Positions 39,511-61,614 of a stretch of DNA of 64,000 nucleotides are shown here, in pieces. Each line of letters opens with the position of its first letter. Position 1 is the stretch's first letter. The DNA is from Paraburkholderia sp. (lineage in GTDB: Bacteria; Pseudomonadota; Gammaproteobacteria; Burkholderiales; Burkholderiaceae). The notes under the pieces are model-generated. The model did no database searches, was not told the origin of the DNA, and was given only the letters and a program-made list of their open reading frames with translations. The position numbers were made by a program, and so were the translations under genes. Where the stretch lies: positions 53,098 to 117,097 of the forward strand of contig NZ_JAMXLH010000058.1 in assembly GCF_024281035.1 (NCBI RefSeq), read 5' to 3'.

Positions 39511-39984
39511 TTGAACCGCAGACTGGCTTTCAGCAAGGATTACTACTCTGGCGCACTGATGGTCGTGATTGGCCTGAGCGCCGCCTACGCCGGCACGACC
39601 TATGACGTTGGAACCCTGACGAACATGGGTGCGGGTTTCTTTCCCGTCGCTGTCGGCACGCTTCTGGCTTTTATCGGCATTTTGATTGCCATGTCGGCGA
39701 AAGATCTGCCCGCGCCTGCTCTCAGCACAACGGACGCGCATTCGCGCCTGCCTGACCTGCGTGGCGCCGTGTGCATTATCGCGGGCACGCTGGCCTTCAT
39801 CCTTCTCGGCAAATATGGCGGCCTGATTCCCGCTACGTTCGCGATCGTGTTCATTTCCGCGCTCGGTGACCGAACCAACACCCTGTTTCGCGCAGCCGCG
39901 TTGTCGATCGTCATGTGCGCGATCGCCCTCGTCGTTTTCTCATGGGCGCTAAAACTTCAGTTGGCGCCGTTTGCCTGGGGATAG
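39511..39984 (+). CDS. Tripartite tricarboxylate transporter small membrane subunit, TctB family
   Basis: DYYSGALMVVIGLSAAYAGTTYDVGTLTNMGAGFFPVAVGTLLAFIGILI. TTG start with CGGAGG SD proposed. Confidence 0.82.
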   Translation: MNRRLAFSKDYYSGALMVVIGLSAAYAGTTYDVGTLTNMGAGFFPVAVGTLLAFIGILIAMSAKDLPAPALSTTDAHSRLPDLRGAVCIIAGTLAFILLGKYGGLIPATFAIVFISALGDRTNTLFRAAALSIVMCAIALVVFSWALKLQLAPFAWG

Positions 39985-39992
39985 AGAGCAAC

Positions 39993-41552
39993 ATGATCCA
40001 ACAATCCTTGCACGACCTCTTTTACGGCTTCTCAGTTGCGCTTCAAGGCACCAACTTGATGTGGTCGTTTTTCGGTGTCCTCGTGGGCAACATGGTTGGC
40101 GTGTTGCCGGGCATGGGGGCGCTTTCGGCGATATCCATCCTGCTGCCGCTCACCTATGTCATGCACCCTGTCCCGGCAATTCTGATGCTCGCCGGCATTT
40201 TCTACGGATCGCAATACGGTGGTGCGATCGGCGCGATTCTGCTCAACCTTCCCTCTCACCCTCCCCATGCGATTACCTGCCTCGACGGGTATCCCATGGC
40301 GAAGGCAGGCCGAGGCGGCGCGGCACTCGGCATCACGATGTTGAGTTCGTTCTTCGCGGCATCGTTCGGCATCGTCCTGATGATTTTCGCTTCGCCATTG
40401 CTCACGGCGATGGCATTCAAATTCGGCCCGCCGGAAATTTTCTCGGTCATGTTGCTGGGTCTTCTCGCGGGCTCGACGATGTCGAGAGGCTCCGCGCTGA
40501 AAGGCATTGCCATGACGCTTTTCGGCCTGCTTTGCGGCATGGTTGGCACCGACGTCAATACGGGCACGTTTCGCTTCACGTTCGGCCTGACCGACATGAA
40601 CGACGGACTGGAACTGGTCGCTATCGCCATGGGGCTTTTTGGCGTCGCCGACTTTCTTTGCAACGTCAACAGAATGCAGGTATCAAACAAGTCGCTCAAC
40701 GTGCGCTTCAAGGATATGCGCCCGACGCGCGAAGAACTCAAAGCCACATTCTGGCCAATGACGCGCGGCACGGCCGTGGGTGCGCTGTTCGGCGCCATGC
40801 CGGGAACCGGCCCGACGATCACGACCTTCGTGGCCTACGCGCTTGAGCGCAAGCTCTCCAGAAATCCGCAGGCATTCGGAACGGGGGTGATTGCCGGCGT
40901 CGCGGCGCCCGAAGCGTCATCGCACTCGAAAACGCAAGTCGACTTCATCCCGACGATGAGCCTCGGCATCCCAGGCGACCCCGTCATGGCGTTAATTCTG
41001 GGCGCGCTCATTATTCAGGGCATTACACCCGGCCCACAGTTGATCTCTGAGCACCCCGATATCTTCTGGGGACTCATTGCGAGTTTCTGGATCGGGAATA
41101 TTCTGCTCGTTCTGCTGAATGTGCCGATGATAGGCGTGTGGATCAAATTGCTAAGGCTGCCGTACCGCTATCTCTTTCCTTCCGCGATGTTCTTTATTGC
41201 GGTCGGCGTGTTCAGCACCCAGAACAGCCTTTTCGAAGTGTGGCAGGTGCTCGCGTTTGGTCTCCTCGGTACCGTCTTCAATTACCTTGGTTTCTCGGTC
41301 GCGCCCATCCTGCTCGGGTTCGTCCTCGGGCCGATGATCGAAGAAAACTTTCGCCGCGCACTGCTCATTTCGCACGGGAATATATCGATTTTTATCAGTC
41401 ACCCCATCAGTTGCGGATTTCTCATCGCATCGCTATTGCTTCTGATATTCGTCACGCTGTCCGCACAACGAAACCGCCGTCGCGCGAACAAAACGGAACG
41501 CATGCACGAGGGCGGATCACGCGTCGAAATGCCGCGGACAAGCAGCGATTGA
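39993..41552 (+). CDS. Tripartite tricarboxylate transporter large membrane subunit, TctA family
   Basis: LVGNMVGVLPGMGALSAISILLPLTYVMHPVPAILMLAGIFYGSQYGGAIGAILLNLPSHP...GAMPGTGPTITTFVAYALERK. Confidence 0.92.
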   Translation: MIQQSLHDLFYGFSVALQGTNLMWSFFGVLVGNMVGVLPGMGALSAISILLPLTYVMHPVPAILMLAGIFYGSQYGGAIGAILLNLPSHPPHAITCLDGYPMAKAGRGGAALGITMLSSFFAASFGIVLMIFASPLLTAMAFKFGPPEIFSVMLLGLLAGSTMSRGSALKGIAMTLFGLLCGMVGTDVNTGTFRFTFGLTDMNDGLELVAIAMGLFGVADFLCNVNRMQVSNKSLNVRFKDMRPTREELKATFWPMTRGTAVGALFGAMPGTGPTITTFVAYALERKLSRNPQAFGTGVIAGVAAPEASSHSKTQVDFIPTMSLGIPGDPVMALILGALIIQGITPGPQLISEHPDIFWGLIASFWIGNILLVLLNVPMIGVWIKLLRLPYRYLFPSAMFFIAVGVFSTQNSLFEVWQVLAFGLLGTVFNYLGFSVAPILLGFVLGPMIEENFRRALLISHGNISIFISHPISCGFLIASLLLLIFVTLSAQRNRRRANKTERMHEGGSRVEMPRTSSD

Positions 41553-42107: not shown

Positions 42108-43108
42108 TCAATTCGCGCTGATATGGCTTGTGTTCACAACTTTTTGCCATTTCGCCGATTCAGTGGCAATCCTGCTCTCAAGTTGTTGAGGCGTGTCGCC
42201 CACTGCATCCATACCCAGCACGGCGAGGCGCTGGCGAGTATCGGGCTGGGCGAGAACCTTCACGGTGTCTTGCTGAATCTTCTGGATGACGTTCGCAGGC
42301 GTGCCAGCCGGCGCCACGAGTGCGAACCAGCCCGTTACATTGAATCCGGGCAGCCCGGCTTCCTCCACGGTCGGAATATCGGGCCATGCGCTTGAGCGAT
42401 GGTCACCGGTCACGGCAAGCACCTTGATCGTTTTGCCCTTCATGAACGGCAGCGCTGCCGCGATGTTGGGCAATACAACCTGTACGCGGTCCGCCATCAA
42501 ATCGTTCAGTGCAAGCACCTCGCCCTTATAGGGCACGTGAACCATGGGAATGCCCGCTGCACCCGCGAAGGCTGCATCGGCCATGTGGACCTGACTCCCG
42601 ATGCCGGCGGAACCAAAATTCAGCTTTGGATGTTGCGTTTTCCCGTATGCGATCAGCTCTTTCACATTCGAAATCGGCAGAGTCGGCGCCACCGCGACAA
42701 CCATCGGGTTGCTCGCAACCGTGGTGATATAGGTGAAGTCCTTGGCCGTGTACGGAAGTTTTTTATAAATGTACTGGTTGACGGTGAACATGCTCCCCGA
42801 TGCCAGCATCAACGTGTAACCGTCCGGCGCGGACTTCGCCTCGACCTCGGCGCCGATCATGCCGCCCGCACCGGGCCGATTGTCGATCACCACGGACTGC
42901 TTCCATAGCGTCCCCAATCCCTGGCCAATCGTGCGTGCCAGCACATCAGTCGAACCGCCCGCTGTAAAAGGTACGATGATCCGGATCGGCTGAGAAGGCC
43001 AGGCGTCTTCTGCATGAGCGACCGACTGCGCCTGAAAAACAGCGGAAAGTGCGGCAGCGAGCACGAGCCCGCGTCTGAGCGTGCGAATGATATGGGAGGG
43101 CATTGCAT
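42108..43108 (-). CDS. Bug/TctC-family tripartite tricarboxylate transporter substrate-binding protein
   Basis: WPSQPIRIIVPFTAGGSTDVLARTIGQGLGTLWKQSVVIDNRPGAGGMIGAEVEAKSAPDGYTLML. Start uncertain (43108 approximate; ORF extends to 43205). Confidence 0.9.
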
Positions 43109-43213: not shown

Positions 43214-44932
43214 CTACTCGCAAAGAATCGTCTCGCCCGGCCGTACCCGGCTAAACGTTACCGGCTCCTGTTTGATCTGAACTTCTCCTTCACTTTTGCG
43301 AATCGTCGTATAAGCCGACCTCTCCAGATCGCCGGCCTCGGGAAAATCCTCGCGGAAATGGGCTCCCCGCGAATTCTCGCGGGATATTGCCGCCTCGGTG
43401 ATGATCTGGCTAACCGAAATCAGGTTTTTCAAGTTGAGCCAGTCGTGCCACTGTGCGTTGAATGCGCGCGCGCCATCCACGACACCCGTCAACATCAGGC
43501 GATCGTTGAGTTCTCCCAGGACGTTCCGCGCCCGCAAGAGTCCATCGTGGTCGCGAATGATGCCGACATGCGTCCACATGCATTTGTAGAGCGACTCCCG
43601 AATCTCTTCGAGGTCTTTTCCGCTTTTTGAAAACGGTGATTCTGCAACCTCGATTGCGCCTTCGATGGCAAACGAATCGGGTTCTCGAAACTGGCCTTCC
43701 GCTTTCACCCACCTCGCCATGTTGTCGCCGGCAATTCCGCCGAATACCGTGGAATTCGCCACGCCGTTGCCACCCAGACGATTCGCGCCGTGCACGCCAC
43801 CCGTATCTTCGCCTGCGGCGAAGAGGCCATCCAGTTCGGTGCTGCAGTCGGTGCGAAACACGACACCGCCCATCATGTAGTGCGCGGTCGGCACCACTTC
43901 GACGAGCCCGCCCGCGAGATCGAACCCGCAGTCCGCGCAACGTTCCACCATGCCCTTGAACTGCTTTCTGACCTTGTCGGGACCGAGGTGGCCCATCTGG
44001 ATGTAAACGCCGCCATTGGGCGAGGTTCGCCCCGCGCGCATTTCGGAATAAATGCCGCGCGAAACGATATCGCGCGTTGCGCGCTCGCCGCGCTTGTCGT
44101 ATTTGTCCATGAACCGCTCTTTCGAGCCATTCAATAGATGCCCGCCCGCACCACGCAGCCCTTCTTCGAGCACGGTGCCGGTCATGCGTGTGTGACTGCC
44201 GGCAAGCAGCCCCGTGGGGTGAAACTGCACCATTTCCATATCGCGAAGCGTGAGTCCCGCGCGCAGCGCCATCGCGAGTCCGTCGCAGCTTTTATCCCCG
44301 GACGGCGTATGAAACTTGTACATCGTCGGGCCGCCGCCCGTCGCTAGCAGCACCGCCCTCGCCTGCACGAACACGAACTTGCCCGTCCGCATATCGATCA
44401 TCAAGACGCCCGCAATATGCTTGCCATCGGCTGTCTTGATCAGCTCGATCGCCCTGTGCTCTTCCAGGCGATGAATACCGCGACTCCACACCTGCTCGGC
44501 TAACCGGTTGATAATCTCGATTCCGGTCAGGTCGCCCTTGTGGACCGTCCGGTCGAACGTCTGGCCCGCGAACGCTTTCTGATGAATCGATCCGTCCGGA
44601 TTACGGTCAAAAAAACAGCCAAGCTCGTTTTCAAGCTCGCGTACGCGCTCGACGGCCGTACTCACGAGCGCCCACGCGAGATCCTGGTTGGACAGCCATT
44701 TACTTCCTTCAATCGTGTCCATGAAGTGACGTTCGACCGAATCGCCGGGAGCCAGCGCGACGTTATAGCCGCCCTGTACCATGCGCGTGCAGCCACATTT
44801 CCCCAGCAGCCCTTTCACTGCAACGGTGATCGAAAGATCCGGCGCCTGCTTGTGCGCGTGAAGCGCGGCAAACAGACCGGCGCCACCCGATCCGAGAATC
44901 AGGATATCCGTCTTGACGCGCCCAATATTCAT
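43214..44932 (-). CDS. Fumarate reductase/succinate dehydrogenase-like flavoprotein subunit
   Basis: MNIGRVKTDILILGSGGAGLFAALHAHK (FAD dinucleotide fold), QFHPTG, RDIVSRGIYSEM, HYMMGGVVF, GGVHGANRLGGNGVANSTVFG. Flavinylation His position is Cys. Confidence 0.88.
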   Translation of the reverse strand: MNIGRVKTDILILGSGGAGLFAALHAHKQAPDLSITVAVKGLLGKCGCTRMVQGGYNVALAPGDSVERHFMDTIEGSKWLSNQDLAWALVSTAVERVRELENELGCFFDRNPDGSIHQKAFAGQTFDRTVHKGDLTGIEIINRLAEQVWSRGIHRLEEHRAIELIKTADGKHIAGVLMIDMRTGKFVFVQARAVLLATGGGPTMYKFHTPSGDKSCDGLAMALRAGLTLRDMEMVQFHPTGLLAGSHTRMTGTVLEEGLRGAGGHLLNGSKERFMDKYDKRGERATRDIVSRGIYSEMRAGRTSPNGGVYIQMGHLGPDKVRKQFKGMVERCADCGFDLAGGLVEVVPTAHYMMGGVVFRTDCSTELDGLFAAGEDTGGVHGANRLGGNGVANSTVFGGIAGDNMARWVKAEGQFREPDSFAIEGAIEVAESPFSKSGKDLEEIRESLYKCMWTHVGIIRDHDGLLRARNVLGELNDRLMLTGVVDGARAFNAQWHDWLNLKNLISVSQIITEAAISRENSRGAHFREDFPEAGDLERSAYTTIRKSEGEVQIKQEPVTFSRVRPGETILCE

Positions 44933-45543
44933 CTTGTTTGCACTCCCATACTTTTCAGAACATCGTCGCGCCGCGAGGCTGTGTCGCTCTTGACTTCGTC
45001 GTACAGGCTGCCACCGCAACTGTCCATAGCCACTAGCAGCGGACCGAAGCCCTTGATCCTGAATTTCCATAGCGACTCGGGATTGAGGTCGTCGAGATCG
45101 ACGGCTTCGATTTTCTCGATCCAGGTCGTTTCGAGCGCAGCCGTTCCGCCGATGATCGCCAGATATGCGCCGCCCAGATCCTGAAACGCCGCCTTCGATG
45201 CTTCGCGCAAGCCGCCCTTTCCAACGATCATGCGCACGCCATACTGTTCCATCAGCGGCCGCGTGAAGCGCTCCATGCGGTCCGATGTGGTTGTGCCAAT
45301 GCAGACCGGTTGATATCCCGCCGGGAATTCGTCGCTCGGCGCGACCTTGCGCACGTTGGGCGCCGTGTGAATGACCGCGTGCCCCCGAAGGTCGAATTCC
45401 GTCGTGCGCCCCTTGTCGAACAGATGAATCTGCGTCGCATCGCGGATACCGAAAAGCGTTTGATGCAATGTCACCGTATCGTTCACCCGCAGCTTGCGGA
45501 TCTGCGACTCGTCGACAGGTGTGAAAAGGTCATAGTGAGCCAT
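44929..45543 (-). CDS. Class I fumarate hydratase / L-tartrate dehydratase beta subunit
   Basis: MAHYDLFTPVDESQIRKLRVNDTVTLHQTLFGIRDATQIHLFD...GPTTSDRME-like region GTTTSDRMERF...VGKGGLREASKAAFQDLGGAYLAIIGGTAAL. Confidence 0.88.
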   Translation of the reverse strand: MAHYDLFTPVDESQIRKLRVNDTVTLHQTLFGIRDATQIHLFDKGRTTEFDLRGHAVIHTAPNVRKVAPSDEFPAGYQPVCIGTTTSDRMERFTRPLMEQYGVRMIVGKGGLREASKAAFQDLGGAYLAIIGGTAALETTWIEKIEAVDLDDLNPESLWKFRIKGFGPLLVAMDSCGGSLYDEVKSDTASRRDDVLKSMGVQTR

Positions 45544-45544
45544 T

Positions 45545-46420
45545 TCAGAATCCGTAAGTGAGACCGTCTGTGGTAAGCCGAGCCTTCGCACGTCGCGCGG
45601 AATGACATTGCATGTTGACCGCGATGGGATTCATCGTGATGTGCGTCGACGCCAGTTCGATATGCACCGCAAACGCCGTGCTATCTCCGCCTAACCCTTG
45701 CGGTCCGACGCCGAGGCGATTCACCGCCTCAGTGAGTTCGCGTTCGAGGTCGGCGCCCGCAGCGTCCGTGCAGGTGGTGCCAAGCGCGCGCGTAGCGGCA
45801 CGCTTGGCCAGCGCAATCGACAGATCGGACGTGCCGCCAAGGCCGACGCCCACGATAGTCGGCGGACAAGTCTTGCCGCCGGCGGAGATAACGCAATCGA
45901 CGACAAACATCTTGATCGCATCAATGCCCTCGGCCGGAACGGCCATCTTCAGAAATGAATTGTTCTCCGAGCCGCTTCCTTTCGGCACCATCTCGATGGT
46001 CGCGGTCTCGTTTTCGTCGGTGAAGTCGACGTGAATAACCGGAACCTCGATGCCGCACGACGTGTGGTTGTTCTTGCGTGTAAGCGGATGCACGACAGAC
46101 GAACGCAGCGGGTGCTCCCTCGTGGCGCGCTCACACCCTTTGCGGATGGCGGCCTTCAACGCAAATCCGTCGAACTCGACATTCCGGCCAAGCACAACGT
46201 TGTAAATGGGGATGCCCGTATCCTGGCAAAGCAGGTTTTCCGTATTTTCCGCCACGCGAATATTGGTCCGCATCGTCTCCAGGACCCGCTGCGCTACCGG
46301 TGACGTTTCGGTAGCCGAAAGTCTTTCAATGCCGTCTTTCACGTCGGGCGGAAGCAACTTGAGGGCGCGAATATACAGCTCTTTCGAGGCTTCCTCGACG
46401 ACGTCAAGGTCTAGTTTCAT
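45545..46420 (-). CDS. Class I fumarate hydratase / L-tartrate dehydratase alpha subunit
   Basis: NTENLLCQDTGIPIYNVVLG...HPLTRKNNHTSCGIEVPVIHVDF...GKTCPPTIVGVGLGGTSDLSIALAKRAA; 4Fe-4S cysteines present. Confidence 0.88.
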   Translation of the reverse strand: MKLDLDVVEEASKELYIRALKLLPPDVKDGIERLSATETSPVAQRVLETMRTNIRVAENTENLLCQDTGIPIYNVVLGRNVEFDGFALKAAIRKGCERATREHPLRSSVVHPLTRKNNHTSCGIEVPVIHVDFTDENETATIEMVPKGSGSENNSFLKMAVPAEGIDAIKMFVVDCVISAGGKTCPPTIVGVGLGGTSDLSIALAKRAATRALGTTCTDAAGADLERELTEAVNRLGVGPQGLGGDSTAFAVHIELASTHITMNPIAVNMQCHSARRAKARLTTDGLTYGF

Positions 46421-46490
46421 GGCCGTCTCTTTCCGAATGGCAAAACAGATTGTGAGTTTATGGCGTAGCCTGAATTCCCAAGGTGCGGTC

Positions 46491-46844
46491 CTAATGGATG
46501 AGCGCCAGCAGGAACGCGAGGCCCGTGCACGTGCTCGCCCCCAAACCGAAGGCGAGCCAGTTTTTTCTCAAGCCCGTCCACGGGAGGAATTCGATCAGCA
46601 AAAGACGAATGCCCCCCATCATGTGAAGCGAGAGCAGCACCACGAGTCCCCATTCGGCAAACCGGAAAAGCGGTTGGTCGGTCAAACGTAGAAAGCCATC
46701 GAGAGAAGCCTCTCCGTGAATGGCGCGCCCGAGCGCCCAGAAGTGAACCGGCAGAAACAAAGCCAGTGCGAGACCGGAAAGACGATGCACAAGAAAGGCC
46801 CACCAGGCAGGATGAGTACGGGCGCGATAGTCGTTCTTTCGCAT
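46491..46844 (-). CDS. SdhD/FrdD-like membrane anchor
   Basis: TM protein HPAWWAFLVHRLSGLALALFLPVHFWALGRAI...LLSLHMMGGIRLLLIEFLPW; between fumarase and other Sdh-like subunits. Confidence 0.75.
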   Translation of the reverse strand: MRKNDYRARTHPAWWAFLVHRLSGLALALFLPVHFWALGRAIHGEASLDGFLRLTDQPLFRFAEWGLVVLLSLHMMGGIRLLLIEFLPWTGLRKNWLAFGLGASTCTGLAFLLALIH

Positions 46845-47191
46845 CACGAGAAGACTCCATAGACAGCCCGCAGGCCCATCAGTGCGAGGGCGGCGGAAAA
46901 AGCCAGGAAAACGGCATGCGCGGACCTTCCCCGCCAGTGCAACCATTCCTCCGCGATTCTGAGTAGCCCAACAGGCACATGTATCGCGCACGCAATCACG
47001 AAGACGGCATAAAAGGCGCCAAACGGCAGATTGCCGCGCGTGCGGCCGAGAATGGCCGATGCGCTCAAGCCGCTATGGACCGCGTAGATAATGACGCCCA
47101 GATGAACGAACACGCAGAGCGCGAGCACAGTCGCGCTCACGCGCTGCCAGTACCAGAGACGAGCCTGAGTGCGAAGAGACATGGCTTGCAT
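46844..47191 (-). CDS. SdhC/FrdC-like membrane anchor
   Basis: RTQARLWYWQRVSATVLALCVFVHLGVIIYAVHSGLSASAILGRTRGNLPFGAFYAVFVIACAIHVPVGLLRIAEEW. Confidence 0.75.
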   Translation of the reverse strand: MQAMSLRTQARLWYWQRVSATVLALCVFVHLGVIIYAVHSGLSASAILGRTRGNLPFGAFYAVFVIACAIHVPVGLLRIAEEWLHWRGRSAHAVFLAFSAALALMGLRAVYGVFS

Positions 47192-47907
47192 TACAGGCCT
47201 CCTTCGCGCGCGGCTTTTATCGTCATCCGCTTGAGGCCGGCAATACCTGCCGTCGGCGAAAGATGCTTGGGACAACGTTCGGCACACGCCCCCTGGGTGT
47301 GGCACGAGTGACAACCCGCATCGCCCGCGACCGCCCGCAGGCGTTCGAGCGTTTGCGTGTCGCGTTCGTCGTTGACGAGCGTCCATGCGCGGTTCAGCGC
47401 GGCGGGACCCAGATAGTCGGGGCGCCAGGTCACCACGTCGCATGAGGAATAACACACGCCGCAACCGATACACTCGATCCCCGCGTCGACCGCCTTGCGT
47501 TGGACGCTATCGGGACTCACCCTGGCGAAGTCATCCTGACGTGTACGGCTTCCCGAGAACTGCCCCTTTGCCTGGCTCCACTTGTCGAAGAACGGGCTCA
47601 TGTCGGTCACGAGATCCTTGATGACCGGGAGGTTCGACAGCGGGGCAATTTCCAGCTCGTTGTTCAGCGCGACTTTCGATACGTGCGTGCGACACGTCCA
47701 GCGCGCCTTGCCGTTGACGTTCATCGCACAGGATCCGCACATGCCCACGCGGCACGCGAACCGGTATGCAAGGTCGGGCTGGAGTTGCCGCTGAATGAAA
47801 GTCACGACGTCCAACACCGTCTGACTCGCGTAACGCGGTACGTCATAGGTCGTGAGCCCCTCGGTAGCGCTTCTCCAGACTTTTACTCGAAGTTTTTCGG
47901 TATCCAC
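47191..47907 (-). CDS. SdhB/FrdB-like iron-sulfur subunit
   Basis: 2Fe-2S CRVGMCGSC...C; CIGCGVCYSSCDVV; CHTQGACAERCPKHLSP. GTG start proposed at 47907 (ORF runs to 47958). Confidence 0.88.
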   Translation of the reverse strand: MDTEKLRVKVWRSATEGLTTYDVPRYASQTVLDVVTFIQRQLQPDLAYRFACRVGMCGSCAMNVNGKARWTCRTHVSKVALNNELEIAPLSNLPVIKDLVTDMSPFFDKWSQAKGQFSGSRTRQDDFARVSPDSVQRKAVDAGIECIGCGVCYSSCDVVTWRPDYLGPAALNRAWTLVNDERDTQTLERLRAVAGDAGCHSCHTQGACAERCPKHLSPTAGIAGLKRMTIKAAREGGL

Positions 47908-48021
47908 ATGGCCTCTCGAATAGCTGCTGAAACAGTACGATTGAACAGGTTGATACATCGATTGTTCAGCAATTCTTCAACAGGAAAAATCGAATAATTC
48001 TGGCGTTCAGGTAAAGTTTTC

Positions 48022-49296
48022 CTATGTCTCGGTGCGCACCCGCTCAAGCTTTAGTACGGTGGCCATCTGAGCGTTGTCGCGCTCTTTTTCGAGCCCCGAG
48101 ACAACGAGCGTGGCAACCGCATTCCCGATCATGTTCGTGACGGCCCGCACTTCGGAAATGAACCGGTCCACGCCGAGAATGAGCGCCGCGCCTTCAATTG
48201 GGATATGTTTGAACGCCGTGAGCGTGGCAAGCAGCGTGACGAATCCGGCGCCCGACACACCGGCCGCGCCTTTCGAGCTGATCATCGACAGCACCATCAG
48301 CGCGATCTGGTCTCCCCAGGACAGCGGCACGTTGTAGGCCTGGGCGATGAACATCGCACAGATGACCTGAGCGACACAGGTGCCGTCGAGATTGAAGGAG
48401 TAGCCCATCGGCATCACGATGCCGACAACCTGCTTCGGACACCCCATCCTTTCGAGCTTGCGGATCAATTGTGGGAATACGGATTCTGACGACGTCGTGG
48501 CGAGGACGAGAAGAATTTCCCCCTTCAAATGATTGAGTAATCGAAGCAGGCTAAAACCGCTCATGCGGCAAATGGTTCCCAGCACGACGACGAGAAAAAA
48601 GATCGTCGCCGCGTAGATCGTCACGAGCAGCATGCCGAGCGAATTCAACGCGGACAGCCCATATTTTCCGACCGCGAAGCCCATCGCCCCCAATGCGCCG
48701 AGTGGCGCGAGCTTCATGATGAAACCGACAATCTTGAACAGCACTTCCGACACCGACTCGAAGAACGTCAGGGCCGGCTGCCCCTTCTCGCCGACATAGG
48801 ACAATCCCACCGCGAACAGGCAGGCAATGACAACGATCTGAAGCATGTCGCCCGAGGCGAAGGGACTCAGGAAGCTCGAAGGAATGATGTTGAGAAGAAA
48901 CGCCGTGAGGCCGCCGCCGTGATGGATATCCGACTGATATTGCGCCAGCACATGAACGTCGACGTTGCCTGGCTGGATATTCATCCCGACACCCGGCCCG
49001 ATCAGGTTCACCATCAACATTCCGATGAGCAAGGCCAGCGTGGTCACCACCTCGAAATAGATGATGGTCTTGCCCGCGATGCGGCCCAACGTACGCATTT
49101 CGCCGATCTGCGAGGCGCCGCATACGATCGTGGTGAAGATCAACGGCGGCGTAATCATCTTGATCAGCCGGATGAACACGTCGGATAGCGGCTTCAGTGA
49201 TTGGGCGAACGCCGGAAAAAAGTGACCGGCGGCGACCCCGATCAGGATGGCAATCAGGACCTGAACATAAATGTGCTTGCAAAGGCAACGCAACAT
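48022..49296 (-). CDS. DctA-type dicarboxylate/amino acid:cation symporter (DAACS)
   Basis: HIYVQVLIAILIGVAAGHFFPAFAQSLKPLSDVFIRLIKMITPPLIFTTIVCG...GYSFNLDGTCV...SSKGAAGVSGAGFVTLLATL. Confidence 0.93.
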   Translation of the reverse strand: MLRCLCKHIYVQVLIAILIGVAAGHFFPAFAQSLKPLSDVFIRLIKMITPPLIFTTIVCGASQIGEMRTLGRIAGKTIIYFEVVTTLALLIGMLMVNLIGPGVGMNIQPGNVDVHVLAQYQSDIHHGGGLTAFLLNIIPSSFLSPFASGDMLQIVVIACLFAVGLSYVGEKGQPALTFFESVSEVLFKIVGFIMKLAPLGALGAMGFAVGKYGLSALNSLGMLLVTIYAATIFFLVVVLGTICRMSGFSLLRLLNHLKGEILLVLATTSSESVFPQLIRKLERMGCPKQVVGIVMPMGYSFNLDGTCVAQVICAMFIAQAYNVPLSWGDQIALMVLSMISSKGAAGVSGAGFVTLLATLTAFKHIPIEGAALILGVDRFISEVRAVTNMIGNAVATLVVSGLEKERDNAQMATVLKLERVRTET

Positions 49297-49379
49297 GGTG
49301 TCTCCCTATTCTCACCCCGCATCGCGTGCGTGCGACTTCGGTGAGTAAGCGGCTCCAGCAGGCTTTGCGACGAGATAGC

Positions 49380-50171
49380 CTAACCGAACAAAACAGGCAC
49401 TGAACGAATGATCAAGTTAGCCGCCGCGGCGATGAGTACGCTCCAGAGGAGCGTCAGGACACGCGGCGCCGAAATGACGCTGCGTAACCTCGCCCCCACG
49501 AACAACCCCATCGCGCCACAAGGCAACATAAAGCTGGCGAGCGGCAGGACAGCGGGGTTTTTATAGAGCCCGGAAGCGGTGAAGAGAATGAGCCGGGCGA
49601 CAGCCGTTGCGGTAAGCAGCGTGCTGATCGTGGCGCGTCTCTGGTCGGGATCGCGCAATCGGCCGGCCAGATAAATTGTATAGACGGGGCCGCCGGTGCC
49701 GAACACTGCAGTCAGGCATCCGCCAAAAAAACCCAACGGGAGCGCCCAGCGCCCGCCGATCTCGCGAAATTCGCCCCGGGAACTGACCCTCCAGAGCGAG
49801 TAGGTCAGCAGGCACACGCCCAGAAGGAGTTCGAGCGGTTTCTCCGGTACGGAAACCAGCACACTGACGCCCAGCAGTAGGCCAATGCACAACCATGGCC
49901 CGAGCCGTGTCAATTCCCGCATCTGAACAGACTTAAGGTTGCGCATGCCAACGAGCATTCCGGCTACGAGGTCCAGCACCAGCATCACCGGTGTCGCCGT
50001 GCGCAAAGGGACCAGTTGTGTCAGCAACGGGATGGCAACGATGGACGAACCGAAACCCGTCAGTCCGTACACCAGATACGCAATCGCCACGACGCCTCCC
50101 GCCACTGCGATCGAACTGACACCCATTCCAATCGCACAAGCAGCGATTTGCGCATTCAACCAGGCTGTCAT
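49380..50171 (-). CDS. TauE/SafE (DUF81) family exporter, candidate sulfite/sulfonate exporter
   Basis: IAVAGGVVAIAYLVYGLTGFGSSIVAIPLLTQLVPLRTATPVMLVLDLVAGMLVGMRNLK...GFFGGCLTAVFGTGGPVYTIYL. Start set at 50171. Confidence 0.87.
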   Translation of the reverse strand: MTAWLNAQIAACAIGMGVSSIAVAGGVVAIAYLVYGLTGFGSSIVAIPLLTQLVPLRTATPVMLVLDLVAGMLVGMRNLKSVQMRELTRLGPWLCIGLLLGVSVLVSVPEKPLELLLGVCLLTYSLWRVSSRGEFREIGGRWALPLGFFGGCLTAVFGTGGPVYTIYLAGRLRDPDQRRATISTLLTATAVARLILFTASGLYKNPAVLPLASFMLPCGAMGLFVGARLRSVISAPRVLTLLWSVLIAAAANLIIRSVPVLFG

Positions 50172-50363: not shown

Positions 50364-51266
50364 ATGCCTTCTCCGCAAACGCGAGCAATGCCGTCCATTC
50401 GCACCCTCAAAATATTTCTCTGCGTCGCTCAAAGCGGAACCTTTGCCGCCGCCGGCAACAAGGTCGGCCTCACCGCTGCCGCCATCGGCCTTCAGATCCG
50501 CTCGCTCGAATGCGACCTCAACGTTCAGCTTTTTGACCGCAACGCCAGAGCCGCCGTACTCAATCCGGTTGGCCGCGCGCTCATTCCGGAGATCGAAGAA
50601 ATCGTTCGCCGGTATGAGCTTCTGGAAAACGCCGTCGGCGGCGGCGAAATGTCCGGAACGGTCGTGACAGGCGCACTCGTTTCCGCGCTGATGGGTTCAT
50701 TCGCGGATGCCTTATGGTCGATACGCCGCCAGCATCCCCGCCTCGATGTACGTCTGCTTGCGGGCCTGTCCAGCGATTTCGCGCGCCAGGTCGAAGTCGG
50801 CGAACTCGATGCGGCGGTCGTCACGCAATCGCCGCACCCGTTGTCGTCCACGCTCCTTTGGACGCCGCTCTATTCAGAGCCGATGATCCTCATCATGCCC
50901 ACCGCCCCCCACTTCGATTTACCGCCGGTACAGGATGAAATACTCCGCGATGCGCCCTTCATGCGCTTCGACCGCAGCACGTGGACCGGTCATCTCGTGC
51001 AGAACGTGCTCGATCAATGCAAGATCGAAGTCAACGAGGCCATGGAACTGAACTCCGTCGAGGCAATCATCGCGCTCGTGCGTCAGGGTTTTGGCATTTC
51101 GATTGTGCCCAAACTCGCGAACGTCGATTTCGATAACGATCGCGCGATCAGCGTCATGCCCCTCGATGGCGTCGACGTGCGGCGCCACGTTGGGCTGCTC
51201 GAACGCGTCAGGCACAGCCGCACGGCGTTCACAGACGCGATCAAAAGCTACTTTGCCGCGGTGTAA
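50364..51266 (+). CDS. LysR-family transcriptional regulator
   Basis: MPSIRTLKIFLCVAQSGTFAAAGNKVGLTAAAIGLQIRSLECDLNVQLFDRNARAAVLNPVGRALIPEIEEIV plus effector domain. Confidence 0.9.
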   Translation: MPSPQTRAMPSIRTLKIFLCVAQSGTFAAAGNKVGLTAAAIGLQIRSLECDLNVQLFDRNARAAVLNPVGRALIPEIEEIVRRYELLENAVGGGEMSGTVVTGALVSALMGSFADALWSIRRQHPRLDVRLLAGLSSDFARQVEVGELDAAVVTQSPHPLSSTLLWTPLYSEPMILIMPTAPHFDLPPVQDEILRDAPFMRFDRSTWTGHLVQNVLDQCKIEVNEAMELNSVEAIIALVRQGFGISIVPKLANVDFDNDRAISVMPLDGVDVRRHVGLLERVRHSRTAFTDAIKSYFAAV

Positions 51267-51291: not shown

Positions 51292-52293
51292 TCATCCCGC
51301 CAGCGCTCGCAACTGATTGAGCAAGGCGTCTGGAATGTCTATGCCGTCGCGCGCCGCAGCATCCGCGAGATCGAGCCGCCGCTGTCCAGGCAATCGCACG
51401 TCGGCGTCCTGCAGCATCGCTTCGATCAACGCCTCGACCCGCGAAAGATAGACGGCGTTACCCGCTAACGCACCCGGATCGATCGCCCAGAACAGGTGGC
51501 CCACGCGCGACTTTTCGCCCTCTTCGGTCAGGAACGAACCAGCCTCGTAGCCGAAGTTCGCTCCGGCCAGCGCCGCCGCCAGCAATTCGACCATCAGTGC
51601 GAGCATCGCCCCTTTAGCCCCGCCAAACGGCAGCATCATGCCTTCGAGCGCGGCCTTCGCATCGGTCGTCGGCCTGCCGTCGCGCGATGTCGCCCACCCC
51701 TCGGGAATCGGCTTGCCTTCACGAGCCGCCACCATGATCTTGCCGCGCGCGACGTTCGACAACGACAGGTCGATCATCAGCGGCTTGCCGTCGCGGCGCG
51801 GAAACACGGCCGCCACAGGATTGGTGCCGAAGACGGGATGCCGGCCACCCCACGCTGGCATCGCAGCGGGCGTATTGCTGAACGCGAGCCCCACCATTGC
51901 GGCCGCACCAACCGGCTCCAGATGCCAGGCGCCCGCGCCGAGGTGATGGCTGCGCTTCACGCTGACGACCGCGCTGCCGTGTTCGCGCGCGCGCTTCACG
52001 AGCGTCTCGATGGCGAGTTCGCAGGCGGGATACGCCATGCCGTCTCCCGCATCGATCAGGACGGCCGCGTTGCGCGACTCGACGATCACCGGTTTGGCCT
52101 TCGCATCGACACGGCCGTTGCGCAACTGCGCGATATACATCGGCAAGCGCGCGACACCGTGCGAAGACAAGCCGCGTTCGTCGGCATAGACGAGTGCGCG
52201 CGCAGTCGCCGCCGCCGTGTGCGACGTGGCGCCCGCGGCCAGCATCGTGCGTGTGGCGAGATCGTAAAGATCGCCGGACGAAATCCGCGTCAT
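51292..52293 (-). CDS. comC: Ldh-family oxidoreductase, candidate (R)-sulfolactate dehydrogenase
   Basis: Malate/L-lactate dehydrogenase family: YADERGLSSHGVARLPMYIAQLRNGRV...FGTNPVAAVFPR; ComC assignment rests on the neighbouring slcC and suyAB. Confidence 0.75.
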   Translation of the reverse strand: MTRISSGDLYDLATRTMLAAGATSHTAAATARALVYADERGLSSHGVARLPMYIAQLRNGRVDAKAKPVIVESRNAAVLIDAGDGMAYPACELAIETLVKRAREHGSAVVSVKRSHHLGAGAWHLEPVGAAAMVGLAFSNTPAAMPAWGGRHPVFGTNPVAAVFPRRDGKPLMIDLSLSNVARGKIMVAAREGKPIPEGWATSRDGRPTTDAKAALEGMMLPFGGAKGAMLALMVELLAAALAGANFGYEAGSFLTEEGEKSRVGHLFWAIDPGALAGNAVYLSRVEALIEAMLQDADVRLPGQRRLDLADAAARDGIDIPDALLNQLRALAG

Positions 52294-52294
52294 G

Positions 52295-53269
52295 TCAAAG
52301 TTGCCTCGTTGTCGTTGAGTCATGCTCGCCCGCGAGCAGCGCATCCATCACGCGCGACGCGACCAGCGTGCTGACGCGTTCGTTCGATTGCACGGTCAAG
52401 CCCGCTATATGCGGCGTGAGAATCAGGTTCGGCACGCCCGCAAGCGGCGAACCCGCTTTGAGCGGTTCGTCGGCGAACACATCGAGCGCGGCGCCGCCAA
52501 CGCGGCCCTGTTTCAGCGCATCGGCCAGTGCGCTTTCGTCGATCACGCCGCCTCGTGACGTATTGATCACGACGGCGTGCGGTTTGAGCAGCTTCAGTTG
52601 CGCCGGGCCCAGCAGATTGCGCGTGCTCTCGACGAGCGGCACGTGAACGGTCATGACGTCCGCCGCGCGCAGCGCGTCGTCGAACGACATGCCCCGTGCA
52701 CCCGTCTCCTGCCAGCAGTCCGCATCCGCGGGAATCTGCGGATCGTAGCCCACGATCTGCATGCCGATGCCGTGCGCGCGCTGCGCGACGAGCCGCCCGA
52801 TGCCGCCGAAGCCGATCACGGCCATCGTGCCGCCCGCCGCCTCGCGCCCGTTCGAGAGCGCCGTGCGCGGCCACTGCCCCTGCGCGACAGCCGCACTCGA
52901 CAGATAGGCGCCGCGCAGCAACATCAGCGACGTGGCAATCACATACTCGGCCACGGCCGCCGCGTTTGCGCCCGTTGCCGGAAACACCTGCACGCCGCGA
53001 TCCCTGCATGCGCCGAGCGCGATATTGTCCAGCCCGACACCGAGCCGCCCGACCACCGACAAACGCGGCGCGCCGTCCAGCAACGCAGCGGTGACCTGCG
53101 TGCGGTTGCGCACGATCAGCGCGTCGGCATCGGCCAGCAGTTCGTGCAGCCGGTCGGGTTCATCGACGAGCGACGCGTGCGCGTGCACGTCGAAATGACG
53201 CCGCAGGGAATCCACTGCCGCCGCGTCCATGAACTCGCTGATGACGATCTTCTTGCGGGCGGTTTTCAA
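52295..53269 (-). CDS. slcC: D-2-hydroxyacid dehydrogenase family, candidate (S)-sulfolactate dehydrogenase
   Basis: VIGFGGIGRLVAQRAHGIGMQIVGYDP NAD fold; VINTSRGGVIDESALADAL; PHIAG; context with suyAB and comC. Confidence 0.78.
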   Translation of the reverse strand: MKTARKKIVISEFMDAAAVDSLRRHFDVHAHASLVDEPDRLHELLADADALIVRNRTQVTAALLDGAPRLSVVGRLGVGLDNIALGACRDRGVQVFPATGANAAAVAEYVIATSLMLLRGAYLSSAAVAQGQWPRTALSNGREAAGGTMAVIGFGGIGRLVAQRAHGIGMQIVGYDPQIPADADCWQETGARGMSFDDALRAADVMTVHVPLVESTRNLLGPAQLKLLKPHAVVINTSRGGVIDESALADALKQGRVGGAALDVFADEPLKAGSPLAGVPNLILTPHIAGLTVQSNERVSTLVASRVMDALLAGEHDSTTTRQL

Positions 53270-54606
53270 TTCGGGCGTTCCTGTGCGTAAGCGGGCGGCG
53301 TTCTTGCATCGACGCTATCGACCGGTTCGGACATCGCATCGTTCACGGCACGACGATCGCGCGGCGCGGCCAGCACCTTGCGCGCCGCCTCGGCGTCGAA
53401 CGCACCTTCCCAGCGTGCGACGACGATCGTCGCCACGGCATTGCCGATCATGTTCACGATCGCGCGAACCTCGTTGAGCACGCGGTCGATGCCGATAATC
53501 AGCGTGATGCCCGCAACAGGAATGATGTTGTGCGTGGAGAGCGTGGCCGTGAGTGCGACCAGCGCCGCGCCCGCTACGCCCGCGCCGCCCTTCGATGTGA
53601 GCAGGAGAACCGCGAGCAGGCCGAGTTGTTGCAGCAAAGACAGATGCGTATTCGTGGCCTGCGCGATGAAGAGCGAAGTCATCGTGAGATAGATGGCCGC
53701 GCCGTCGAGATTGAACGAATAGCCGGTCGGCAGCACGAGACCGACGACGGGCTTCGGGCAGCCGAGGCGTTCGAGCTTGTCCATCAGGCGCGGCAGCACC
53801 GATTCCGTGGTCGACGTGCCGAGCACGATAAGCAGCTCCTCGCGCAGATATCTGAGCAGCGGCCACAGGCCGACACCGGCCCAGCGGCTGATCGTGCCGA
53901 GCACGAGGACGATGAACAGGATGCTGGTGAGGTAGAAACACACGATCAGCAAGCCGAGTTGCTGCAGTGTGCCGATGCCGTACTTGCCGACCGTGAACGC
54001 CATCGCACCGAATGCACCGAGCGGCGCAAGCCGCATGATCATCTCGACGATGCGCATGAGCGCCTCGCCGCTCTGCTCGATGACGCGCGACAGGAAGCGG
54101 CTGCGGCGAGACATGATCGACAAGGCCACGCCGAACAACACCGAAAACAGCAGCACCTGCAGCAGGTTGCCGTGCGCGAACGCACCGACCACCGAGTTCG
54201 GCACGATTTCTTCAAGGAAACTTTGCGACGCCGCCACATGCGCTTCGCTCACGTAGTGGCTGACGGCCTGCGTATCGAGCGTGGCCGGATCGATATTGAG
54301 CCCGTCGCCCGGACGCAGCACGTTCGCCACGACCAGACCGATCACGAGCGCGAGCGTCGTCACGGCTTCGAAATAGACGAGCGTTTTGACGCCCACGCGC
54401 CCGACATGCTTGAGACTTTCCATCCGTGCGATTCCCAGCGACACGGTGCAGAAAATCACCAGCGTAATGAGCATTTTGATCAGGCGAATGAACGTGTCGC
54501 CCAATGGTTTCATTTCCACGCCGAAGTGCGGCCAGAAATAACCAACGAAGATACCGGCCGCAAGTCCGATCAGGACCTGGGCATAAAGATGTCTGAGCAC
54601 GCGCAA
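53266..54606 (-). CDS. DctA-type (DAACS) symporter, candidate sulfolactate importer
   Basis: LRVLRHLYAQVLIGLAAGIFVGYFWPHFGVEMKPLGDTFIRLIKMLITLVIFCTV...GYSFNLDGAAIYLTMTSLFIAQA...SKGGAGVAGAALVAL. TTG start at 54606 with GGAG SD proposed; ORF-track start at 54762 unlikely. Confidence 0.88.
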   Translation of the reverse strand: MRVLRHLYAQVLIGLAAGIFVGYFWPHFGVEMKPLGDTFIRLIKMLITLVIFCTVSLGIARMESLKHVGRVGVKTLVYFEAVTTLALVIGLVVANVLRPGDGLNIDPATLDTQAVSHYVSEAHVAASQSFLEEIVPNSVVGAFAHGNLLQVLLFSVLFGVALSIMSRRSRFLSRVIEQSGEALMRIVEMIMRLAPLGAFGAMAFTVGKYGIGTLQQLGLLIVCFYLTSILFIVLVLGTISRWAGVGLWPLLRYLREELLIVLGTSTTESVLPRLMDKLERLGCPKPVVGLVLPTGYSFNLDGAAIYLTMTSLFIAQATNTHLSLLQQLGLLAVLLLTSKGGAGVAGAALVALTATLSTHNIIPVAGITLIIGIDRVLNEVRAIVNMIGNAVATIVVARWEGAFDAEAARKVLAAPRDRRAVNDAMSEPVDSVDARTPPAYAQERPN

Positions 54607-54792
54607 GATGGTGTCTCCTCCACTCGCTGCTGCCTGATGAGACAGCTTCGTGCTCCGCGGCGCGGTCTTCCTGGGCGCTGGTCTTGCGACCACGCCTGCA
54701 TGGCCTTTTGCGCAGCGGTGCGCGAAGCTGTAGCGAAACTGCGTTCGCAAAGCCCGCTGCACGAGCGGGCTTCCGGGGTAATACCTGCGCGA

Positions 54793-55968
54793 TCAGGCGC
54801 TTTCGAACAGACGCGTGAGCACGAACTCGCGATGGCCCAGCGTTTCCGCCGAGGTCCAGCGGCCGTTCGCCGTCGCGAGCATCGCTTCGAGCAGCTTGTC
54901 GCCCGCCTGGTCGAGGTTCTGCTCACGCTGCAGCAGGCCCGATACGTCGACATCGATATGCTCGCTCATCGTGCGCACCGTGCGCGGGTTCGCGCAGATC
55001 TTGATCACCGGCAGGATGGGATTGCCGATCACGTTGCCTTGCCCCGTCGGGAAGAGGTGCACGGCAAAACCCGAAGCCGCGCAAAGCGTCACCATCTCCG
55101 CTGCCGCGGACGACGAATCCATGAACCACAACCCTGAATGCGTCGGCTCCTCAGCCTTGTCGAGCACGCCGTCCACGCGGCATTTCTTGCCGATCTTCTG
55201 GATGTTGCCGAGCGCTTTCTCCTCGATCGTCGTCAGGCCGCCCGCGATGTTGCCCTTCGTCGGCTGCGACTCGCAGAGGTCATCGGTCTTCCAGCGGTTA
55301 ATCATGTCCTGATAGCGGCCGAACATGAACTCGAATCGCTCGCGCACCTGATCGTTTGCACAGCGCGCCGATACGAGCTGTTCACCCCCTGTCAACTCGG
55401 ACGTCTCGCCGAACACGAGCGTCGTGCCCAGCCCGTAGAGCTTGTCGAACGCATTGCCGACCGTCGGGTTCGAGCCGCATCCCGACGTCGTATCCGACTC
55501 GCCGCACTTGGTGGACACCCACAGGTCGGAGATCGGACACTCTTCGCGATCGAGCGTCGTCGCCCACTGCACCATTTCCTTCGCTGCCTTGGAGGCGCGC
55601 AGGATCGTGTCGTGGTCGCCATGCAGTTCGATGCCGAAGCCCATCACCGGCTTGCCCGACTTCGCAATGCCGTCCACCACGCGCTTCGTCCAGCCTTCCT
55701 CGATGCCGATGACGATCACGCCGGCGACGTTCGGATTGCACCCCGCGCCGATCAACGTGCGGAAATGCAAATCGAGGTCCGCGCCGAACTGGAGGCGGCC
55801 GTACGGATGCGGCAGCGCCATGGTGCCTTTAATGTTGTTCTCGACCGCCTGCGCGGCGGCATTCGAAAGATCGTCGACGGGAAGAATGATGACGTGGTTA
55901 CGCACGCCGACGCGGCCGTTCGAGCGGCGATAGCCGCGGAAAGTGGTGTTCTGGTCAATCACGCTCAT
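54793..55968 (-). CDS. suyB: (2R)-sulfolactate sulfo-lyase beta subunit (UxaA/altronate dehydratase family)
   Basis: [53 protein letters not shown]...[26 protein letters not shown]; adjacent suyA. Confidence 0.85.
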
Positions 55969-56075
55969 GATGTCTCTCTGATTGGAAGGAGTTCAACGGG
56001 CAAGCTCAATCGCCGCCGCCGGCACGACCCGGTGCGGGCTGGTTCGGGCCGGCGGTGACCGGTGCGGGCCAGGGC

Positions 56076-56426
56076 TTACCAGCGCTTCGTCTTGATGTTG
56101 TGAACGTGAGCGTGCTCACCGGCCCTGATCGGGACCACCACCTTGCCGATATCGACGCCGTACTTGTAGACGGTGTCGCCCACGGCCATGTCCTTGAGCG
56201 CCACCTTGTGACCGATGGGAATGTCCTGCTTCGCCGCGACGACCACGATTTCGTCTTCGTCCATGATCCACGCGTTCAATTGCGTGCCCGCCTTGATGCC
56301 CTCGACGACCGCGACACCAACTGTGTCCTTGGCCTCGTGCAGCACGATGTGGATCGTCCTGCCTGCCGGATCGGCATGGGCCGCCGTTGAATCAGCCTGC
56401 TGCGATGCTTGAGCTGCCTGGCTCAT
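56076..56426 (-). CDS. suyA: (2R)-sulfolactate sulfo-lyase alpha subunit (SAF domain)
   Basis: IHIVLHEAKDTVGVAVVEGIKAGTQLNAWIMDEDEIVVVAAKQDIPIGHKVALKDMAVGDTVYKYGVDIGKVVVPIRAGEHAHVHNIKTKRW; split UxaA N-terminus next to suyB. Confidence 0.85.
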   Translation of the reverse strand: MSQAAQASQQADSTAAHADPAGRTIHIVLHEAKDTVGVAVVEGIKAGTQLNAWIMDEDEIVVVAAKQDIPIGHKVALKDMAVGDTVYKYGVDIGKVVVPIRAGEHAHVHNIKTKRW

Positions 56427-56510
56427 TTGAGTGTCTCCAGTTTTGTTCACGGGGGGGCTGGCGCGTGGGCCATGTTGCGAATAATAGTGACCACATTCAT
56501 GCATGTCAAC

Positions 56511-56525
56511 CATATCATCTATATG
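56511..56525. promoter_or_regulatory. Inverted repeat, candidate GntR (SuyR) operator
   Basis: CATAT-CATCT-ATATG in the divergent suyA/regulator intergenic region. Confidence 0.4.
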
Positions 56526-56593
56526 TGTTAAACGAGCCAGATGAAGTAAGATCGTGACAAAGTCAGAAAAGCGCCGGAAAGGAGCACACCTCA

Positions 56594-57379
56594 ATGAACA
56601 CGTTGAAGAACGGCACGGCCCATGAAACGGGCGTCGCGGGCACGCCCATCATCGGGGGAACCCGATACAAGGAAGTGAAGAACGGGATCCTCGCCGCCCT
56701 GTCAGCGAAAGAATGGAAGGGCGGCGAAGCGATACCTTCCGAAAGGCGCTTGTCGGAACGCTTTGGCGTTTCCATCGGGACGCTGCGCAAGGCGATCGAC
56801 GAACTGGTGGCGGACAACATCCTCGTGCGCCATCAGGGACTCGGCACGTTTGTCGCGCAGCATCAGCGCGACCGGTACTTCTTCCGTTTCTTCCGGGTCG
56901 TGCGCCAGGACGGCGAGAAGACATATCCCACGGTGAGCCTCGTTTCTTTCATGAAAGGAAAGGCCTCGCGGGAAGTCGCGGCGATGCTTGGCATCGAGCC
57001 GCACGCGCGGGTTTACTCGTTCGTGAATCGCCTGGCGTTGCACGGCGAGCCCGTCATGATCGACAGCATCACGGTCGCCGAAGAGCGTTTTCCCGGGCTC
57101 AATGAAACGGCGCTGCGCGAGCGGCCCAGCACGCTTTACAACTTCTACCAGGACGCGTTCCACATCAATGTGGTCGAGACGGAAGAGCGATTGCGCGTCG
57201 CCGTGGCCAATGACGCAGAAAGTGCATTGCTCGAAGTGGCGCCGGGCACGCCGTTACTCGAAGTACGGCGCATTGCGTACTCTTATAACCAGGCGCCGGT
57301 CGAGGTGCGTATCTCGCGCGTGAATACTGCGCGCTATGAATACGTCGGCCCCTCTGCTTCGCATGAGGAGCCGATCTAG
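56594..57379 (+). CDS. suyR: GntR family (HutC/UTRA type) transcriptional regulator, candidate SuyR
   Basis: RYKEVKNGILAALSAKEWKGGEAIPSERRLSERFGVSIGTLRKAIDELVADNILVRHQGLGTFV plus UTRA-like domain; divergent from suyAB. Confidence 0.82.
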   Translation: MNTLKNGTAHETGVAGTPIIGGTRYKEVKNGILAALSAKEWKGGEAIPSERRLSERFGVSIGTLRKAIDELVADNILVRHQGLGTFVAQHQRDRYFFRFFRVVRQDGEKTYPTVSLVSFMKGKASREVAAMLGIEPHARVYSFVNRLALHGEPVMIDSITVAEERFPGLNETALRERPSTLYNFYQDAFHINVVETEERLRVAVANDAESALLEVAPGTPLLEVRRIAYSYNQAPVEVRISRVNTARYEYVGPSASHEEPI

Positions 57380-59541: not shown

Positions 59542-59599
59542 GGTTTGTCCTTCGGTTGGTTGCCGGAGCGCCCTGATAACAGGCGCATGCTGCGGCGAA

Positions 59600-61273: not shown

Positions 61274-61289
61274 CGTGCCATCCCCTGCG

Positions 61290-61440
61290 TCAGAACTGGT
61301 CTTCGATCGGGGCCAGTGCGCCCTTGTTGTCATGTGCTGCGCCGAGGACTGATTCGAACGCGCCTGCACACGGCAGGATCTGCGTCGCGAAGCAATGCGC
61401 CATCGCCGCCAACCAAACGAGAACGATGGTAGCTGCGATC
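61290..61440 (-). pseudogene. Possible acyl-CoA dehydrogenase C-terminal remnant
   Basis: Minus strand LAAMAHCFATQILPCAGAFESVLGAAHDNKGALAPIEDQF resembles C-termini of FadE-like acyl-CoA dehydrogenases; weak. Boundaries approximate. Confidence 0.3.
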
Positions 61441-61614
61441 GATCCAGATTCCCGTGGCGAAACCGGACCATCTAGTGACAATTTCGGCCACGCGATAAGG
61501 ATCGGGCAACGGACGTCGCCTCGGTTCCTGTGCGGCCGGAACGCGTCGCGTCCACCCCATCGTCGCCGCATTTTTCAATCCGTTGCTCGTGCAATTGATC
61601 AATGTCTACCTTCA

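Follow-up and report, generated by a model that had tools for sequence, protein, structure and literature searches.

A complex II paralogue and a two-subunit hydratase encoded beside sulfolactate genes in Paraburkholderia: a candidate gene set for 3-sulfopropanoate degradation

Introduction

The closest described relatives of the genes studied here are complex II (succinate:quinone reductase and quinol:fumarate reductase; PDB 1nek and 1kf6), the two-subunit class I fumarase and L-tartrate dehydratase (PDB 7xky and TtdAB) and the (R)-sulfolactate sulfo-lyase pathway (SuyAB, SlcC and ComC), which begins at sulfolactate. We analyzed a stretch of 64,000 nucleotides from Paraburkholderia sp. (contig NZ_JAMXLH010000058.1, positions 53,098 to 117,097; hereafter the window), in which an operon encoding a predicted complex II paralogue and a two-subunit hydratase lies next to a sulfolactate gene cluster. 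This operon is probably the entry of 3-sulfopropanoate into sulfolactate catabolism. 3-Sulfopropanoate is succinate with one carboxylate replaced by a sulfonate, and 3-sulfoacrylate and 3-sulfolactate are the corresponding isosteres of fumarate and malate.

3-Sulfopropanoate arises from sulfoquinovose or 2,3-dihydroxypropane-1-sulfonate through anaerobes and from homotaurine through aerobes (PMC11489063, PMC12890257). Its degradation and that of 3-hydroxypropanesulfonate were unreported as of 2024 with the exception of one thesis, and Bilophila wadsworthia uses 3-sulfopropanoate by a route that has not been identified (PMC11489063). A 2026 review describes bacterial 3-sulfopropanoate degradation as mechanistically unclear (PMC12890257). 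In the HpfXYZ pathway of Enterococcus gilvus, enzymes of a succinate pathway are repurposed for a sulfonate isostere and a TauE protein is termed the probable 3-sulfopropanoate exporter (PMC11489063); that pathway forms and excretes 3-sulfopropanoate, whereas the operon described here is proposed to consume it. According to the thesis, as cited in the same paper, Roseovarius nubinhibens ISM uses homotaurine via 3-sulfopropanoate, sulfoacrylate and sulfolactate, and the paper's statements on this route give no genes for the steps (PMC11489063). The open-access literature that we searched contained no description of the genes reported below, nothing relevant on sulfosuccinate operons and nothing relevant that pairs sulfolactate with fumarate reductase or fumarase.

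Results

Organization of the operon

The operon occupies positions 43214-50171 of the window and consists of the following genes, given in their order on the minus strand:

49380..50171, minus strand: TauE/SafE-family exporter, probably for sulfite (or a 3-sulfopropanoate transporter); open reading frame and neighbourhood
48022..49296, minus strand: C4-dicarboxylate carrier of the DctA type, a candidate for 3-sulfopropanoate import; passes the cut-off of NCBIfam NF002461 with 540 bits
47191..47958, minus strand: FrdB/SdhB-like iron-sulfur subunit; NCBIfam TIGR00384 above cut-off
46844..47191, minus strand: SdhD-like membrane anchor; weak matches, below cut-off, to succinate dehydrogenase anchor and fumarate reductase cytochrome b models
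46491..46844, minus strand: SdhC-like membrane anchor; reading frame
45545..46420, minus strand: alpha subunit of the Fum1-type hydratase, proposed to hydrate 3-sulfoacrylate; passes the cut-offs of TIGR00722 and NF004885
44929..45543, minus strand: hydratase beta subunit of the Fum1 type; TtdB/FumA C-terminal family, below cut-off
43214..44932, minus strand: FrdA/SdhA-like flavoprotein with a clade of its own, proposed to dehydrogenate 3-sulfopropanoate; tree and motif changes

The original prediction had read the same gene order, although its count of seven genes has to be raised to eight. The genes from FrdB through FrdA overlap or are closely spaced and form a tight unit. A promoter scan gave no signal above chance. 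As in complex II, a flavoprotein binding flavin adenine dinucleotide (FAD), an iron-sulfur (Fe-S) subunit and membrane anchors are encoded together, giving the four-subunit layout, and catalytic Arg and His positions are shared with that complex.

The flavoprotein forms a separate clade with an altered substrate site

FrdA falls below the NCBIfam cut-offs of all SdhA, FrdA and TfrA models, the nearest being TfrA and SdhA/FrdA, and is about 35% identical to true SdhA. Its relatives with solved structures are SdhA, FrdA and NadB, and the source genome holds two further relatives at 33-34% identity whose motifs point to SdhA and NadB. In a phylogenetic tree the relatives of the operon FrdA form one clade with a support of 100/100, apart from SdhA and NadB.

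The substrate residues of SdhA (His242, Thr254, Arg286, His354 and Arg399 in E. coli numbering) were compared with 47 sampled members of the clade. Equivalents of His, Arg, His and Arg are kept, but in all 47 a Glu replaces the Thr of the TEG motif of SdhA, and directly before this site all 47 have an inserted segment with T-(R/K)-M-T. The GEGG motif is mostly GAGG. Among the retained residues are the equivalents of Arg286, His354 and Arg399, comprising the catalytic Arg plus His and Arg at one carboxylate site; the exchanged Thr is the one that contacts the other carboxylate in SdhA. Such a pattern would be expected of a substrate that shares one carboxylate end with succinate and differs at the other. 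Judged by these residues, FrdA is a complex II paralogue and not a succinate dehydrogenase, in agreement with the earlier statement that the operon is not a housekeeping sdh operon.

All that the remodelled site indicates is that plain succinate is probably not the substrate; this would also suit another C3 or C4 sulfonate, for example a substituted 3-sulfopropanoate, ending in sulfolactate or sulfite. We give such a substrate a slim chance, as it needs extra steps to reach sulfolactate and 3-sulfopropanoate needs none.

Association with an ordinary sulfolactate cluster

As had been predicted, sulfolactate genes adjoin the operon. They form one cluster at 51292-57379 with the gene set of the sulfo-lyase pathway:

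51292..52293, minus strand: ComC-like sulfolactate dehydrogenase; best NCBIfam match NF040650 (L-sulfolactate dehydrogenase), 220 bits against a cut-off of 500 bits
52295..53269, minus strand: SlcC-like hydroxyacid dehydrogenase of the phosphoglycerate-dehydrogenase family, proposed to act with ComC in sulfolactate racemisation
53266..54606, minus strand: second DctA carrier, belonging to the plain suy cluster; NF002461 above cut-off
54793..55968, minus strand: SuyB, large subunit of (R)-sulfolactate sulfo-lyase; identity group and tree
56076..56426, minus strand: SuyA, small subunit; reading frame
56594..57379, plus strand: GntR-family regulator of the suy cluster

SuyB of the window lies in a group with 60-92% identity that is separate from UxaA-family relatives at about 39%, and it is 84.7% identical to a copy from Cupriavidus pinatubonensis; SuyAB has been identified in that species (PMC12890257). 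The FrdA gene was found in 37 of 300 genomes of the family, the source genome included, with the other copies 68-94% identical. Twenty-eight of these Burkholderiaceae genomes have an operon with the hydratase type of the window (Fum1), and every one of them has SuyB, within 15 kb of the operon in 26 and on other contigs in 2. Among the nine genomes with the second hydratase type (Fum2), seven have SuyB, linked in one. In total, SuyB is present in 35/37 genomes with FrdA and in 26/263 without it (Fisher p ~1e-26, a value that ignores relatedness); more weight should be given to the linkage distances and to the occurrence in many genera and in both bacteria and archaea.

Linked and unlinked SuyB sequences interleave in the tree, with 5 label changes, so the SuyB beside the operon looks ordinary and not specialised. 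This makes sulfolactate the likely product of the module, provided that SuyAB still acts on sulfolactate, and reversing a hydration and a dehydrogenation from there leads to 3-sulfoacrylate and 3-sulfopropanoate. Compared with the known sulfo-lyase pathway, a two-step upstream module would thus have been added.

A control set of 12 suy clusters lacking a linked frd operon was compared. These contain SuyA, SuyB and DctA or TctC, with ComC and/or SlcC in all but one; GntR is present in 12/12 and DctA in 8/12. The genome that carries one of them (G309) also has a Fum2-type operon, unlinked to the cluster. Within ~10 kb of the 12 clusters neither an FrdA-clade gene nor TauE was detected, which indicates that the frd-fum-TauE genes are an add-on module and that TauE, found alongside the Frd/hydratase set in 77/118 loci, tracks the frd module. 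The suggestion that TauE serves only the suy genes was rejected on these grounds. A suy cluster without FrdA (L236:15950-17361) has, on the opposite strand, a pair of subunits remotely similar to fumarase (37% and 30%).

Proposed pathway

On gene content and linkage, dissimilation of 3-sulfopropanoate via sulfoacrylate is suggested as follows. 3-Sulfopropanoate would be taken up by DctA and/or a Tct system and oxidized to 3-sulfoacrylate by the FrdA-FrdB-SdhD-SdhC complex, with the quinone pool as the predicted electron acceptor. The two-subunit Fe-S hydratase would add water to C2 of 3-sulfoacrylate, yielding 3-sulfolactate, whose enantiomers SlcC and ComC would interconvert via sulfopyruvate. 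SuyAB would then cleave (R)-sulfolactate to pyruvate plus sulfite, the latter leaving through TauE. We favour 3-sulfopropanoate because all Fum1-type genomes carry SuyB and because it reaches sulfolactate without extra steps. Use of ordinary succinate, fumarate, tartrate, mesaconate or itaconate, with the sulfonate genes nearby by coincidence, would agree with the family annotations of the enzymes. This is very improbable in view of how strongly SuyAB, ComC, SlcC and TauE are linked to the operon, both across families and in archaea, and of the substrate residue at which every sampled clade member differs from SdhA; the tartrate and plain succinate alternatives of the original prediction were set aside as unlikely for the same reasons, as was mesaconate.

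Conserved neighbourhood and distribution

Gene calling and clustering over 120 FrdA-clade loci showed that gene order is kept far above chance. The operon genes co-occur in these loci, with FrdB in 117, the hydratase alpha subunit in 116, the beta subunit in 115, SdhD in 114 and SdhC in 112. LysR was present in 85, TctC in 49, a thiamine diphosphate (ThDP)-dependent enzyme in 28 (with both hydratase types), ComC and SuyB in 24 each, SuyA in 23 and SlcC in 19.

The clade also occurs in other families of Pseudomonadota, and its range covers beta-, alpha- and gammaproteobacteria, Rhodococcus and haloarchaea, with plasmid-borne copies in Methylobacterium, Paracoccus, Sulfitobacter, Pseudomonas, Pseudorhizobium, Rhodococcus and haloarchaea. 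In Methylobacterium oryzae, Frd, hydratase, ThDP enzyme, TauE, SuyAB, DctA and SlcC- and ComC-like genes lie in one stretch, together with a molybdopterin oxidoreductase and a putative sulfate exporter. Plasmids of Haloarcula and Natribaculum combine FrdA-FrdB and TauE with two UxaA-family (SuyAB-like) genes, and no class I hydratase was found nearby in these two clusters. In the place of the bacterial hydratase stands a gene of the Lyase_1/argininosuccinate-lyase family (L140:10284-11786 and L142:10218-11720), possibly a non-homologous replacement. The make-up of these plasmids speaks in favour of the proposed pathway. L215, a contig with the title Oceanobacillus sp. HTM 045 (Bacillota), carries an FrdA 79% identical to an alphaproteobacterial one, and its taxonomy may be wrong.

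Two types of hydratase

The alpha subunit scores 301.5 with NF004885 (fumarate hydratase) against a cut-off of 276 and falls below the TtdA cut-off, and the beta subunit lies below the cut-offs of all TtdB and Fum models. They match chains A and B of the two-subunit fumarase (7xky_A and 7xky_B), respectively. The alpha subunit has the three Cys for a 4Fe-4S cluster and the GSGSEN motif, and the catalytic Lys, Arg, Thr and His of the class I enzymes are shared, the beta subunit retaining Arg, Thr, Arg and Lys positions. The hydratase differs from 7xky and TtdAB by changes of HAGP to HTAP in the beta subunit and of GPTTS to GTTTS, and by its partnership with a complex II paralogue.

Among 118 loci, 27 have the Fum1 type and 91 the Fum2 type, which lacks the GSGSEN motif. 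Fum2-type FrdA sequences lie on one side of a single tree branch (92/94). The Fum1 loci contain SuyB in 21, ComC in 22, SlcC in 17, TauE in 21 and MmsA (malonate/methylmalonate-semialdehyde dehydrogenase homologues) in none; the Fum2 loci contain SuyB in 2, ComC in 3, TauE in 56 and MmsA in 6. SuyB was not called in six Fum1 loci: three end before the suy genes and one has a SuyB fragment at the contig end; in Rhodococcus RHA1 SuyB lies ~19 kb away, and one locus (L042) has none in its 20 kb. Some Fum2 clusters are flanked by semialdehyde-type aldehyde dehydrogenases and by zinc alcohol dehydrogenase or HIBADH-type genes, which would fit entry from 3-hydroxypropanesulfonate or 3-sulfopropanal, the isostere of succinic semialdehyde. 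A nitroreductase-family gene often lies upstream of FrdB in Fum2-type clusters (L138:9008-9835 and 20 other loci).

Because SuyB is rare in Fum2 loci (2/91 versus 21/27), TauE is frequent, MmsA occurs in six against none and GSGSEN is lost, we tentatively propose that one FrdA family works with two hydratases. The Fum1 hydratase would hydrate C2 to give sulfolactate and so require SuyAB, and the Fum2 hydratase might hydrate the sulfonate-bearing C3, with spontaneous loss of sulfite and formation of malonate semialdehyde. The Fum2 variant may thus release sulfite directly, and the alpha-hydroxysulfonate chemistry of the original prediction may hold for this hydratase of other genomes.

For the window itself, the original prediction of a catabolic operon is supported as regards a sulfonated, dicarboxylate-like acid. 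Its choice of sulfosuccinate, oxidized to sulfofumarate and hydrated at the sulfonate-bearing carbon to oxaloacetate and sulfite, does not hold as first choice: this route would make SuyAB needless, yet SuyB is in every Fum1-type genome and beside the operon forms no distinct lineage. Hydration to 3-sulfomalate, followed by SuyAB or ComC/SlcC, is a variant. The enzyme classes and the sulfite exporter also suit sulfosuccinate, and some minimal Fum2-type clusters, with little besides Tct, Frd, hydratase, LysR and TauE, would suit a product such as oxaloacetate. Sulfosuccinate has no place for the semialdehyde-type dehydrogenases of related clusters, however, and being less parsimonious than 3-sulfopropanoate we regard it as unlikely.

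Adjoining genes

Further genes of the window near the operon are:

42108..43103, minus strand: TctC-type solute-binding protein directly following the operon; open reading frame
50388..51266, plus strand: LysR-family regulator, divergent from the operon; LysR models
39915..41552, plus strand: TctA-like permease, likely the uptake partner of TctC; copies 93-95% identical lie by the orthologous operons L033, L034 and L085
37456..39105, minus strand: ThDP-dependent enzyme, a recurrent companion of the module; scores under every NCBIfam cut-off, its best matches including 2-hydroxyacyl-CoA lyase, acetolactate synthase and Xsc

Beyond the suy cluster, positions 58354-63213 encode a BktB-like thiolase, a FixC-like FAD protein and a chemoreceptor that resembles a citrate transducer most closely.

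Discussion

Further support for 3-sulfopropanoate comes from R. nubinhibens ISM, since the strain for which the route was reported carries an FrdA-clade cluster (L171) and the intermediates outlined for it are those predicted here. This cluster differs from the operon in having a Fum2-type hydratase, and a family III CoA-transferase gene (L171:12702-13874) lies between its two hydratase genes; members of the sequence cluster to which this transferase belongs occur in 11 loci.

Several points weigh against 3-sulfopropanoate. The R. nubinhibens route is second-hand, taken from a thesis through a citing paper (PMC11489063), and SuyB was undetected in this strain, in a search of one genome that is weak alone, so that the Fum1 type is not directly tested by it. 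A trianion, for example sulfosuccinate, would also be a suitable substrate of the Tct systems. The ThDP enzyme found repeatedly, and in other loci the CoA-transferase and nitroreductase genes, lack a place in the scheme and hint at further chemistry, as another sulfonate substrate would have it. Finally, we know of no FrdA-clade enzyme with an assayed substrate.

The genes described here offer a concrete and widely distributed candidate set for 3-sulfopropanoate degradation, R. nubinhibens included. The predicted enzyme would be a respiratory complex II that oxidizes a sulfonate, in a pathway where succinate, fumarate and malate are swapped stepwise for their sulfonate isosteres. This suggests that automatic annotation of such genes as succinate dehydrogenase and fumarase is misleading.

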